DNA of 64,000 nucleotides from Sinomonas sp. R1AF57 (GTDB taxonomy: Bacteria; Actinomycetota; Actinomycetes; Actinomycetales; Micrococcaceae), in contig NZ_CP022463.1 of assembly GCF_002224485.1 (NCBI RefSeq), positions 1,832,817 to 1,896,816 of the forward strand. The letters are read 5' to 3'. Under the pieces are notes generated by a model. It was not told the origin of the DNA. It saw nothing but the letters and a program-made list of their open reading frames with translations, and searched no databases. The number at the start of each line of letters is the position of its first letter. Positions within the stretch are counted from its first letter, which is position 1. Shown here in pieces: positions 15,597 through 63,431 of this stretch. Position numbers and translations under genes: made by a program.

Positions 15597-17987
15597 TCAG
15601 ACCTTCGCGAGCGCCGCGCGTGCCACCTTGGCGGCCTCGACGAGGTTCCGCAGGGACGCCTCGGTCTCCGCGTAGCCGCGGGTCTTGAGGCCGCAGTCCG
15701 GGTTGACCCAGAGCTGGCGCGCCGGGACATGCTTGACCGCGGTCTCGAGCAGCTCCTCGACCTCGGCCTGGCTCGGGACGCGCGGCGAGTGGATGTCGTA
15801 CACGCCCGGTCCGACGCCGCGGCCGAACCCGTGCGCCTCGAGGTCGTTGACGACCTCCATGCGGGAGCGGGCCGCCTCGATCGAGGTCACGTCGGCGTCG
15901 AGGCCGTCGATCGCATCGATGATGACGCCGAACTCCGAGTAGCACAGGTGGGTGTGGACCTGGGTCGCGTCCCGGGCGCCCGCCGTCGCGAGCCGGAATG
16001 ACTTCACGGACCAGTCAAGGTACGCGGGCTGGTCGGCACGGCGCAGCGGGAGCAGCTCGCGCAGGGCAGGCTCGTCCACCTGGATGATCTTGATCCCGGC
16101 GTCCTCGAGGTCGGTGATCTCGTCGCGCAGGGCGAGGGCCACCTGGTTGGCGGTCTCGGCGAGCGGCTGGTCGTCGCGGACGAAGGACCACGCGAGGATG
16201 GTCACGGGGCCGGTGAGCATGCCCTTGAGCGGCTTCTCGGTGAGCGACTGAGCGTAGGCCGCCCACGGGACGGTGATCGGTGCGCCGGTGGAGGCATCGC
16301 CCCACAGGATCGAGGGTCCAGCCGCGCGCGAGACGTCGCCCCACAGGATGGACGGGCGGGTGCAGCGCGAGCCGTAGGACTGCACCCAGCCGTGGACGGT
16401 GACGTCGAAGCCGTCGAGGTTCTCGGCGAAGTACTGGACCATGTCGTTGCGCTCGGGCTCGCCGTGCACGAGGACGTCGAAGCCGAGCTCCTCCTGCAGG
16501 TCGACGACGCGCTTGATCTCGTCCTTCATGAGTCGCTCGTACTCGGCCGCGTCGATCGCGCCCCGGTTCAGGCGGGCGCGAGCCCCACGGACCTCCGCGG
16601 TCTGCGGGAAGGAGCCGATCGTCGTCGTCGGCAGGGGCGGCAGGTTCAGGACGGCGTCCTGCGCGGCGGCGCGCACGGCATAGTCCGAGCGGGAGAAATC
16701 GGCCGCGGTGAGGGCCGCGGTGCGCTCGCGGACCTCGGGGCGGCGCACGCCCGGTGCCTGGGCGCGGGAGGCGATCACGCGGGTCGCCTCGTCGAGGGCG
16801 GCCTGCGCCGAGGCCGGGTCTGCCAGGTAGGCCGCGAGCGTGGCGACCTCGCGCACCTTCTGGTCGGCGAACGCGAGCCAGCTGCGCAGCGCGTCGTCCA
16901 GCTGGGTCTCCTCCTCGACGTCGTGCGGGACGTGGAAGGTCGAGGTCGAGGTCGAGACCGCGACGGCGAATCCGTGCTCGGCGCCGGCCGCCCGGAGGGC
17001 GTCGAGCTTCGCCGCCGAGGCCGCGAGGTCGTTGCGCCAGACGTTATGGCCGTCCACGACACCGGCGACGAGCGTCTTGCCGGCGAAGCCGGCCAGCTCG
17101 GCGTCGGACGGGAGCGCACCCTTGAAGAGGTCCAGCGCCACAGCCTCGACACCGGTGGCCGCGACGGCCGAAGACTGGGCACCGAGGCCACCGTACGGGG
17201 CGGACAGGAGGATCTGCGGACGGGCGGCGGGGGCGGTCAGTGCGGCGTAGGCGCGCTCGACGGCGTCGCTCACCTCGAGCGCGGGGGTGTCGAGGTCTGC
17301 CACGAGCGCCGGCTCGTCGAGCTGGACCCACTCGGCGCCGGCGGCGGCGAGCTTCTCCAGGAGCTGCGCGTACACGGGGAGGATGTCCTCGAGGCGGGAC
17401 AGCGGCGCGAAGTCGGCCGGAGCGTCGTCGGAGGCCTTGGACAGGAGCAGGAACGTGACGGGGCCGACGAGGTAGGGGCGGGTCACAATCCCTTGGGCCT
17501 TGGCGAAGGCGAAGTCCTCGACCACGCGCTCTGAGGAGAGCGAGAAGGACGTCTCGGGGCCGATCTCCGGGACGAGGTAGTGGTAGTTCGAGTCGAACCA
17601 CTTCGTCATCTCGAGAGGCTGCTGCTCCGCGTTCCCACGGGCCAGCGTGAAGTAGGCATCGAGGCCGAGGGTCCCATCGGCGTCGTGCAGCGCCCCGAAG
17701 CGGGCGGGCACCGCGCCGAGCGCGACCGCGGTGTCGAGCACCTGGTCGTAGAAGGAGAAGGTGCCGGGGACCGAGGAGCGCTCGGTGAGGCCGAGCCCGG
17801 CGAGCCGGGCCAGCGTCGCGGCCTGGATCTGCTCGGCGGCGGCGTGCAGCTCGGCGGCGGTGGAGGCGCCGGCCCAGTAGGCCTCGACGGCCTTCTTCAG
17901 CTCGCGCCGGCGGCCGATGCGGGGGTAGCCGAGGATGGTCGCCGACGGGAAGGAGGGCGCGGCGGAGGAAGGGTTCTGTGCAGTCAT
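15597..17987 (-). CDS. metE: Cobalamin-independent methionine synthase
   Basis: A 796-residue MetE that transfers methyl from 5-methyltetrahydropteroyltri-L-glutamate to homocysteine. The catalytic zinc ligands are visible: His680 and Cys682 in [10 protein letters not shown] and Cys765 in NPDCGLKTR; the 83-residue Cys-Cys spacing equals that in E. coli MetE (643/726). The C-terminal half begins near [19 protein letters not shown]. An unusual in-frame 13-residue duplication, PSILWGD at 545-551 and again at 558-564, follows [12 protein letters not shown] in the normally single-copy stretch before [16 protein letters not shown] 17987 has GGA upstream. metF lies 43 bp upstream on the same strand and supplies the methyl donor. 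Confidence 0.95.
16297..16349. repeat. 39-bp tandem duplication inside metE
   Basis: TCGCCCCACAGGAT occurs at 16297-16310 and 16336-16349, exactly 39 bases apart, with diverged flanks. The result is the repeated peptide PSILWGD(V/A)S in MetE. Confidence 0.85.
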
Positions 17988-18030: not shown

Positions 18031-18984
18031 TCAGTGCGCGGCCCGGCGCCGGGCAGCCAGGGAGGGCCGGCTGGGACGCGGGAGGCTGAGCCTCGCGAGG
18101 ACCTCGAGCGAGGCCTCGTGCTCGTTGAAGGTGTAGAGGTGGAGGCCCGGGGCGCCTGCCTCGAGCGCGGCCTCGGCGAGCGCGACGCTCGCCTCGATGC
18201 CGATGCCGCGCGCGGCAGCCTCGTCGTCGCCCGCGGAGCGGAGGCGGTCGACGAGCGACGCGTCGGGGAGCACCCCGGACAGGCTCGCGAGCTTCTCGAT
18301 CCGACGGACGCTCGTGAGCGGCATGATGCCGGGGATGACCGGGATCGTCACGCCCGCCCGGCGCGCCCGGTGCAGGAGCGAGGCGTACTGGTCCGTGTGG
18401 AAGAAGACCTGCGTGATCGCGAAGTCGGCACCCGAACGCTGCTTGGCCAGGAGCACCTCGATGTCGTGGGCCTCGCTCGGCGATTCAGGGTGCTTGGTGG
18501 GGTAGGCGGCCACACCGATCGCGACCTTGCCGGCGGCGAACTGCGCGGAGCGCCGCAGCTCGACCCGTCGGATGAGCTCGATGAGGTCCTGGGCGTACCG
18601 CAGCGCGCCCTGAGGCAGCACGCCGTCGCGGGGCGTGTCCCCGCGCAGGGCGAGGATGCCGCGGACGCCGCGGTCGAGGAGCTCGTTGACCACGGTGCTC
18701 AGCTCGGCTGGGCTGCCGCCGACGCAGGTGAGGTGCGCGAGCGGCCGCAGGGTCGTCTCGAGCTGCAGGCGGTCGACGAGGTCCAGCGCAGTGTCGTGGT
18801 TCGAGCCGCTCACCCCGTACGTGACCGAGACGTAGTCCGGGTCGGTGGCCTCGAGCTCGCGGATGGTCTTCCACAGGGTCTCGGAAGCGGCCGGGCTCCT
18901 GGGCGGGAACAGCTCGTAGGAGAGGGCCACAGGGGCTGGTGCGGCGATGGATGTGGGGGCGTCGATCAGGGTTGGTGGAGACAT
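18031..18984 (-). CDS. metF: Methylenetetrahydrofolate reductase
   Basis: A 317-residue MetF flavoenzyme reducing 5,10-methylene-THF to 5-methyl-THF, the cofactor substrate for MetE. Family motifs: LSYELFPPRS near the start with the catalytic Glu, YVSVTYGVSGS, LAHLTCVGGS, ILALRGDTP, and FAITQVFFHTDQY with VTIPVIPGIMPLTS. ATG 18984 is preceded by AGGA at good spacing; the open frame extends 14 codons further but lacks family similarity there. It is first in a metF-metE operon with a long structured leader. Confidence 0.95.
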   Translation of the reverse strand: MSPPTLIDAPTSIAAPAPVALSYELFPPRSPAASETLWKTIRELEATDPDYVSVTYGVSGSNHDTALDLVDRLQLETTLRPLAHLTCVGGSPAELSTVVNELLDRGVRGILALRGDTPRDGVLPQGALRYAQDLIELIRRVELRRSAQFAAGKVAIGVAAYPTKHPESPSEAHDIEVLLAKQRSGADFAITQVFFHTDQYASLLHRARRAGVTIPVIPGIMPLTSVRRIEKLASLSGVLPDASLVDRLRSAGDDEAAARGIGIEASVALAEAALEAGAPGLHLYTFNEHEASLEVLARLSLPRPSRPSLAARRRAAH

Positions 18985-19199
18985 TTGCGTCCTTTGGCGG
19001 TCCAGTCCGTCCCTGCGCAGCGGCATGCGCGTTGCAGGGCAGAGGTGTCTTCAGGAACGCAGGGTGCACTGCCCGTGGGGCGCCGCCGCGGCTGGCGCCC
19101 GGCATGGAGGGCAGTTTCCCTGCGGCAAATGTCAGGCCCACACGGGGGCACCCACATCCCCGGGACCGGGGATCGCTGACACGTTGCAGAGGCAACTTG
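18985..19199 (-). ncRNA. Structured 5' leader of metF-metE (unassigned riboswitch-like RNA)
   Basis: About 215 nt separate a plausible promoter from the metF start. On the minus strand I see, in order: a small hairpin (19183-19196); a helix TGTCAG (19176-19181) paired with CTGACA (19130-19135) closing a junction with two hairpins (19156-19173, 8-bp arms, and 19136-19149); a long two-part hairpin with arms 19109-19115/19068-19074 and 19118-19123/19059-19064; and a CCCTGC/GCAGGG hairpin (19011-19039) just before the ribosome binding site. The GCAGGG element at 19118-19123 could also pair with the CCCTGC at 19034-19039, so alternative folds exist. I do not recognise SAM-I, SAM-II, SAM-IV, SAH or cobalamin consensus. 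Confidence 0.5.
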
Positions 19200-19205
19200 G
19201 TTACG

Positions 19206-19235
19206 AGCCTAGGAAGCGGAGCCGGTGCGCTTCAA
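19206..19235 (-). promoter_or_regulatory. Probable sigma-70 promoter of metF-metE
   Basis: On the minus strand TTGAAG (19230-19235) and TAGGCT (19206-19211) are separated by 18 bp. Initiation would fall near 19199, at the 5' edge of the folded leader. Confidence 0.5.
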
Positions 19236-19281
19236 GGAGATTCCGCAATGTGTCAGACCGTGACGGCGTGTGACGCCGGGC

Positions 19282-32450: not shown

Positions 32451-32523
32451 TGGAGGTAAGGGGATTCGAACCCCTGACCTTCTGCATGCCATGCAGACGC
32501 GCTACCAACTGCGCCATACCCCC
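32451..32523 (-). tRNA. tRNA-Ala(GGC), second copy
   Basis: A 73-nt cloverleaf starting GGGGGTA and ending TACCTCC plus discriminator A. The anticodon loop ATGGCAT gives anticodon GGC. The G3:U70 wobble pair, the alanine identity element, is present. CCA is not encoded. Confidence 0.95.
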
Positions 32524-32524
32524 G

Positions 32525-32597
32525 TGGAGCTGAGGGGACTCGAACCCCTGACCCCCTGCATGCCATGCAGGTGCGCTACCAGCTGCGCCACAGCCCC
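32525..32597 (-). tRNA. tRNA-Ala(GGC), first copy
   Basis: A 73-nt cloverleaf with acceptor GGGGCTG/CAGCTCC, G3:U70, anticodon loop ATGGCAT (GGC), T-loop TTCGAGT and discriminator A. It lies one base from the next tRNA, so both come from one transcript. CCA is not encoded. Confidence 0.96.
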
Positions 32598-63180: not shown

Positions 63181-63255
63181 TCGGGGTGACAGGATTTGAA
63201 CCTGCGACTTCCTGCTCCCAAAGCAGGCGCTCTAGCCAAGCTGAGCTACACCCCG
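63181..63255 (-). tRNA. tRNA-Pro(TGG)
   Basis: A 75-nt cloverleaf, acceptor CGGGGTG/CACCCCG with C1-G72 as usual for proline, anticodon loop TTTGGGA (TGG), T-loop TTCAAAT and discriminator A. CCA is not encoded. Confidence 0.95.
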
Positions 63256-63323
63256 GTCTAGTGCACAGACCACGATACAGGGCCGCGACAAGCCAATGCA
63301 CATCAGGCCCCGGGCACGGAAAC

Positions 63324-63347
63324 GGCCCCTCCGGCGTCGGAAGGGCC
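63324..63347 (-). terminator. Hairpin between tRNA-Gly and tRNA-Pro
   Basis: Arms at 63324-63332 and 63339-63347 form a 9-bp stem with one wobble pair and a 6-nt loop, followed on the minus strand by GTTTCC. It may terminate or help process the tRNA-Gly transcript. Confidence 0.5.
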
Positions 63348-63360
63348 CTGGGCGCCAACG

Positions 63361-63431
63361 AGGGGGCGACGGGAATCGAACCCGCGTATCCAGTTTGGAA
63401 GACTGGCGCTCTACCATTGAGCTACGCCCCC
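63361..63431 (-). tRNA. tRNA-Gly(TCC)
   Basis: A 71-nt cloverleaf, acceptor GGGGGCG/CGCCCCC, D-arm GCTC/GAGC, anticodon loop CTTCCAA (TCC), T-loop TTCGATT and discriminator T, the base typical of bacterial tRNA-Gly. CCA is not encoded. Confidence 0.95.

Follow-up and report, generated by a model that had tools for sequence, protein, structure and literature searches.

The leader of the metF-metE genes of Sinomonas sp. R1AF57 is a strong candidate for an undescribed class of riboswitch, since it contains a conserved fold, is able to cover the metF start codon, belongs to no catalogued family and sits at the place where relatives carry a SAM sensor. It appears to us almost certain that this leader is a cis-regulatory RNA which is conserved and controls the translation of metF, and probable that it acts as some kind of riboswitch. 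The more specific reading that we prefer, to which we give somewhat less than an even chance, is a translational riboswitch of an undescribed class that most likely binds SAM, represses, and stands in for a SAM riboswitch. The window, by which we mean the whole 64,000-nucleotide stretch of DNA analysed, contains the following features of this locus:

15597 to 17987, minus strand: metE, cobalamin-independent methionine synthase (PF01717 and PF08267; TIGR01371 above its cut-off)
18031 to 18984, minus strand: metF, methylenetetrahydrofolate reductase (PF02219, E = 3.7e-73)
18980 to 18988, minus strand: start-codon strand GCAAAUGUC, with the ATG at 18982-18984 and nine of nine pairs with 19125-19133
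18990 to 18995, minus strand: Shine-Dalgarno-like AAAGGA, putative, from the sequence
19058 to 19124, minus strand: long hairpin P4, with a predicted outer stem of CGCAGGG (19118-19124) and CCCUGCG (19058-19064)
19125 to 19133, minus strand: conserved anti-start strand GACAUUUGC, perfectly complementary to 18980-18988 and sharing bases with the 3′ strand of P1
19125 to 19182, minus strand: conserved 58-nt core (models R1 and R2; 82.2 bits and E = 1.2e-17 with R2, whose training set includes the window's own sequence)
19131 to 19180, minus strand: modelled junction-closing helix P1, GUCAG (19176-19180) with CUGAC (19131-19135)
19137 to 19155, minus strand: near-invariant P3 region GUGGGUGCCCCCGUGUGGG, CCC (19144-19146) with GGG (19151-19153) or GGG (19137-19139)
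19157 to 19172, minus strand: hairpin P2, UCCCC/GGGGA, with covariation
19183 to 19196, minus strand: predicted hairpin P0, GUUGC/GCAAC
19206 to 19235, minus strand: promoter-like sequence, -35 TTGAAG (19230-19235) and -10 TAGGCT (19206-19211) with an 18-nt spacer

A covariance model built from the 58-nt core, R1, identified the element in 89 of 295 Micrococcaceae genomes, with a single match in each (E from 8e-10 to 2e-17) and a spread over 11 of the 32 genera of the family. At the level of DNA similarity, every one of 14 further genomes tested from the same genus has the leader, as do 4 of 21 genomes from elsewhere in the family. Outside the family, two weak matches were obtained in an order-level search of 297 genomes (G367, and G342, where by eye the match lies inside an open frame) and one in a class-level search of 394 genomes (G639, E = 0.009), both samples including family members. 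A pattern scan across 84,980 species, represented by one genome each, gave 108 stretches. Among the 80 of these that were listed with names, 68 were true by R1 and 12 fell below 17 bits or were unscored; of the remaining 28, 21 had the full core by a stricter pattern and were left out of later counts. The pattern is blind to the window's own genus, which has GATGTGGG at that place. Most of the named true records are Arthrobacter, Pseudarthrobacter and Paenarthrobacter, accompanied by Renibacterium, Acaricomes and Haematomicrobium. An Arthrobacter-type element was also seen in a record named Sporosarcina beigongshangi (L141), a name that is probably wrong.

Together, the 75 loci from genome searches and the 68 named loci form a set of 143, within which distinct sequences were counted because the two sources overlap in part. 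In 141 of these loci metF follows 3′ of the core on the same strand, the other two stretches ending too soon, and metE was found in 127 (the remaining loci were not individually checked). Among the loci studied, the element was seen ahead of no other gene. It is a conserved folded core in the 5′ leader of a metabolic gene, a leader whose transcription is predicted. The promoter that an initial annotation of the window had placed at 19206-19235 was found as TTGAAG/TAGGCT, and in 113 of 122 distinct relatives the best -10-like hexamer recurs 30-34 nt 5′ of the core (a count made without a shuffled control). From these signals, the transcript is predicted to start just before P0, far from the metF ATG, which lies at 18984-18982 on the minus strand and not at 18985. 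A P0 hairpin was predicted in all 122 distinct relatives, likewise without a shuffled control, with stems that differ among them (for example GUUAC/GUAAC or CACGUU/AACGUG). Upstream of the -35 (window 19236-19275) the DNA looks conserved by eye, resembling CGTCAC/GTCACATT within the genus of the window and, at the corresponding position in other genera, GCGTCTTAATTCG. This may be a transcription-factor binding site, in which case metF is perhaps also under transcriptional control.

The core shows covariation in P2. All five P2 pairs change on both sides. Such two-sided changes fill 75 cells, where shuffling gives 19.5 on average and none of 500 shuffles reached as many; the test used 70 distinct rows from 75 matches, in an alignment made with the model and fitted to the tested structure. 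When the P2 partners were slid by one to three columns, at most 13 two-sided cells were obtained. Inserts of tens of nucleotides were seen in the P2 loops of L018, L051, L065 and L077-L082, some of which look capable of forming hairpins. P1 is 100% paired in the 70 distinct rows and four of its five pairs never vary, so that covariation is uninformative on this helix. For P3 and its alternative pairing, 99.1% and 98.6% of cells are satisfied and two-sided changes occur in neither (70 rows). A rival hairpin, GUGGGUGCC/GGGCCUGAC, is preferred to P1 by RNAalifold and, in the isolated 5′ part of 112 distinct sequences, reaches a median of 0.56 against 0.09 for P1. Because of this near-invariance, and because the rival hairpin is predicted more often than P1, we treat P1 and P3 as models, not results.

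Several structures proposed in the initial annotation can be placed in this framework. The helix-closed junction with its two hairpins (19130-19181) is able to form and corresponds to the conserved core. The two-part long hairpin at 19059-19123 (P4) can also form, and each of 108 distinct leaders is predicted to have a stem starting within 10 nt of the anti-start strand, its sequence taking dozens of different forms (without a shuffled control). GCAGGG had been noted to pair with either of two CCCTGC segments; both pairings are possible, and only the partner at 19058-19064 has counterparts noticed in relatives, an informal look having revealed none for the CCCTGC at 19034-19039. What stands out as conserved is the pairing with the start codon, instead of the suggested exchange of CCCTGC partners. 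The sequence for a hairpin near the ribosome binding site, at 19011-19039, is present, but this region varies in length (51 to 189 nt lie between the two strands of the start helix, depending on the leader) and the hairpin was for that reason left out of the element. The fold stability of the 219-nt leader, ending just after the ATG, is no argument either (z = -1.26, with 22 of 200 shuffles folding as well) and was dropped; the evidence lies in conservation and covariation.

The core ends in the nonamer GACAUUUGC, which is perfectly complementary to GCAAAUGUC at the start of metF, a match that the initial annotation had missed. A start could be assigned in 140 of the 143 loci (the exceptions being L064, L131 and L174), which yielded 63 distinct combinations of start and anti-start strand, the usual form accounting for 57 and a relocated mask for 6. 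Complete nine-position pairing (allowing G-U) is seen in 52 of the 57 distinct cases of the usual form. Four cases have one mismatch (L015, L019, L057 and L068), and L073, with three mismatches and six of nine pairs, has the most divergent start helix of this form and may carry a shifted or shorter mask. Overall, 506 of 513 cells are paired, compared with a maximum of 501 and a mean of 497 in 1000 shuffles, in counts that take no account of relatedness. At the ninth position, 46 of the 57 distinct pairs have C-G and 8 have U-A; since five of the U-A cases belong to one genus, g52, and the other three come from named records of unplaced genus, the covariation of the start helix represents few independent events.

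In the relocated form, found at eight loci (six distinct; five loci in g52 and three in records named Arthrobacter), UUCGUAC takes the place of the usual core strand and can pair with GUACGAA immediately upstream of the Shine-Dalgarno sequence; the predicted probability of this pairing is 0.82-0.96. The helix is kept here although the start codon is elsewhere. Conversely, CAAATGTC was absent at the metF start in 12 of 12 start candidates from 13 element-lacking metF loci, so that this start context tracks the element as far as tested.

Folding was predicted for 108 distinct leaders, each taken from P0 through the start region and 20 nt further, and selected for CA(A/G)(A/G)TGTC; of the 143 loci, 2 without metF, 16 without the motif (including the relocated form) and 17 repeats were left out. 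In these selected leaders the predicted probability of the mask has a median of 1.00 and is at least 0.9 in 98, while the median for P1 is 0.00; values below 0.5 were obtained for five (L049, L091, L107, L119 and L160). Opening the start is calculated to cost about 10 kcal/mol (median), and when P1 is forced a shortened mask is still favoured by 2.6 kcal/mol, all these figures applying to folding that excludes pseudoknots, tertiary contacts and co-transcriptional folding. Taken at face value, the predictions would make the mask the default state. The GAC of the usual mask is common to the modelled P1, which, if formed, would compete with the full 9-bp mask; in the relocated form, the mask no longer overlaps P1.

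We also determined what precedes metF in relatives without the element. metF was sought in 97 element-lacking family genomes (sets of 20 and 80, with 3 in both), giving 38 strong matches (6 and 32). The loci of 36 of these were scanned, leaving out G095 and G117, along with the weak metF-like matches of G020 and G034 and the second one of G030. This analysis revealed a SAM-I or SAM-IV riboswitch directly upstream of metF in 33 of the 36 element-lacking Micrococcaceae genomes, comprising 6 of 6 in the first set and 27 of 30 in the second (26 SAM-I and 1 SAM-IV). Five of the SAM-I matches fall below the Rfam cut-off (L215, L226, L245, L247 and L259). When the first set is taken together with seven order-level loci, the count is 11 of 13 (10 SAM-I, 1 SAM-IV), with neither element nor SAM riboswitch at metF in the order-level loci L220 and L221. 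The three family exceptions, L232-L234, all belong to genus g52 and likewise have neither. By eye, their metF lies closely behind what appears to be another frame, with no leader left, and one of the three genomes, G148, has a second metF behind a SAM-I riboswitch. A further g52 locus, L262, was grouped with them, as cases in which metF has moved behind a frame with loss of its leader or a second metF stands under SAM-I.

R2 detected the element in none of the 30 scanned metF loci of the second set. Across 43 element-lacking metF loci, the majority of which have SAM-I or SAM-IV, its best match had E = 0.56 and was not convincing. Within a single genus, g7, four genomes have SAM-I at metF (G072, G118, G137 and G166) and four have the new element (G096, G153, G191 and G203), a mixture that might reflect transfer of the whole operon with its leader. 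The Sinomonas genome itself carries two SAM-I riboswitches elsewhere (L231, 236500-254500), one ahead of SfnG and O-acetylhomoserine sulfhydrylase and one ahead of an ABC transporter that is called sulfonate-type on NCBIfam scores below curated cut-offs. Since these SAM-I riboswitches precede other sulfur genes in the same genome, SAM sensing by RNA is at home here.

Searches with Rfam 15 gave no match in the window's leader at gathering score and, when relaxed, a sole leader match on the opposite strand (E = 8); the leaders of 20 diverse homologues had none up to E = 1, and we therefore rejected a known Rfam class for the leader. The window's only matches at gathering score are four tRNA genes (32451-32597 and 63181-63431). 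Combined with the comparative evidence for a cis-regulatory RNA, this supports the proposal of the initial annotation that a structured metF-metE leader lies outside the known riboswitch classes. SAM-I and SAM-IV (RF00162 and RF00634) share the gene and the position with the element, standing directly before metF in most element-lacking relatives, and the physiological role is probably the same. However, none of 20 element loci matches these models up to E = 1, in a search whose validity at the metF locus follows from the fact that the same kind of search finds SAM-I and SAM-IV in relatives. The GGGUGCC of the core resembles the GGUGCC strand of SAM-I and SAM-IV, a likeness that we set aside as no model match supports it. 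Cobalamin riboswitches (RF00174) commonly control metE in actinobacteria; this candidate was rejected, as the leader has no RF00174 match and none was found in 35 family genomes under stricter filters. The SAH riboswitch (RF01057) is of the ON type, and the element differs from it in lacking an Rfam match and in not being seen at ahcY.

As modelled, with a start mask that the comparisons support and a P1 that is almost invariant and has a rival, the element would resemble SAM-VI and SAM-III (the SMK box) in being a small RNA with something like a three-way junction that acts on translation initiation. Unlike them, it lies at metF rather than metK, has P4 between core and start, and gives no Rfam match up to E = 1 in 20 diverse homologues. 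According to PMC6914780, SAM-VI occurs in Bifidobacterium, with a conserved six-nucleotide J2-3 and a model that builds the AUG into P1. The main texts of PMC8632094, PMC11109978 and PMC6429828 do not mention metF, and in the parts available neither these nor PMC2864571 show a matching motif. No published description of the element was found among the matches listed in a mainly open-access literature, outside which falls a 2017 survey by Weinberg with reportedly 224 candidate RNAs. We call it undescribed on the strength of this and the missing Rfam 15 match: apparently a new class within riboswitch-like RNAs, not a categorically new kind of RNA.

In the mechanism we propose, the transcript would begin near P0 and the 58-nt core would fold first. 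The last strand of the core, CUGACAUUUGC, would be common to the core and to the 9-bp helix with the metF start, P4 being looped out between the two. With this helix formed, the ribosome could not reach the metF start, and metF, probably together with metE behind it, would be off. Ligand binding in the core would then decide the partner of the shared strand; by analogy with the relatives, the ligand would most likely be SAM and the outcome repression. We prefer SAM and repression because the element stands where relatives have SAM-I or SAM-IV and because the relocated mask is not excluded by P1.

The sign of this response could be the reverse. The same RNA might be switched on by a compound that accumulates when the cell needs to make methionine (SAH, homocysteine or a folate substrate of MetF), with the start helix as the default OFF state and a ligand-stabilised P1 breaking the mask, a reading that we consider rather unlikely overall even though the folding speaks for it: in the 108 selected leaders, without ligand, the start helix has its median of 1.00 and P1 of 0.00, and P1 and the GAC:GUC part of the mask are mutually exclusive. 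A mask predicted as the ligand-free ground state would fit a default-off, ligand-ON switch more easily than repression by SAM, and from the replacement of SAM-I it follows that the gene under control is the same, not that the signal is. Known SAH riboswitches moreover have ahcY and metF as their core regulon in proteobacteria, as stated in PMC4239095. Against ligand-dependent activation, the mask of the relocated form (eight loci, six distinct) has lost its overlap with P1, so that simple competition by P1 would leave it in place. SAM riboswitches, which the element replaces, also repress as a rule, and the element is seen at no other gene. The predicted folding and the overlap of P1 with the usual mask would favour the opposite sign, with SAH or homocysteine as ligand.

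A related proposal takes the core for a new aptamer outside the SAM and SAH architectures (of which PMC9971707 counts six), whose ligand might for instance be homocysteine or a one-carbon folate. Such a switch would be off by default and turned on by its ligand, the nearly invariant CUGACAUUUGC choosing between GUCAG (P1), GUGGGUGCC in a local hairpin and the metF start codon; we regard this as unlikely. We are more doubtful still that the core is the binding site of a protein or small RNA which itself sets the start mask. A near-invariant primary sequence over about 30 nt is compatible with recognition by a protein, yet most of the element-lacking relatives examined have a SAM riboswitch at this position, and a junction-like arrangement in which P2 varies is reminiscent of small aptamers. 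A passive structure with no specific signal, whether thermosensor-like or a constitutive translational damper, would agree with the stable start-codon mask that is predicted; it leaves unexplained both the near-invariant core, most of which is unneeded for a 9-bp mask, and the placement where relatives have SAM riboswitches, and is very improbable. Already disfavoured, and barely credible, is the idea that a DNA operator or a translated leader peptide underlies the conservation, for while a palindrome-like GTGTCAG...CTGACAT is present and the DNA before the -35 looks conserved by eye, the P2 loop varies in length by tens of nucleotides as its arms covary, which argues against an operator, and third codon positions look as invariant as the others with frames not kept (by eye, in the alignment), which argues against a peptide.

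Should the preferred reading hold and the element bind SAM, it would add one more independent way in which RNA recognises a ligand with several known RNA sensors, and would provide a clean natural case of one riboswitch class replacing another at the same gene, even within genus g7. Binding of SAH, homocysteine or a folate would instead make it a sensor that is unusual or new. With the alignment, the masking helix and the relocated form at hand, either possibility can be tested directly, and simply, in cultured bacteria of the Arthrobacter type.
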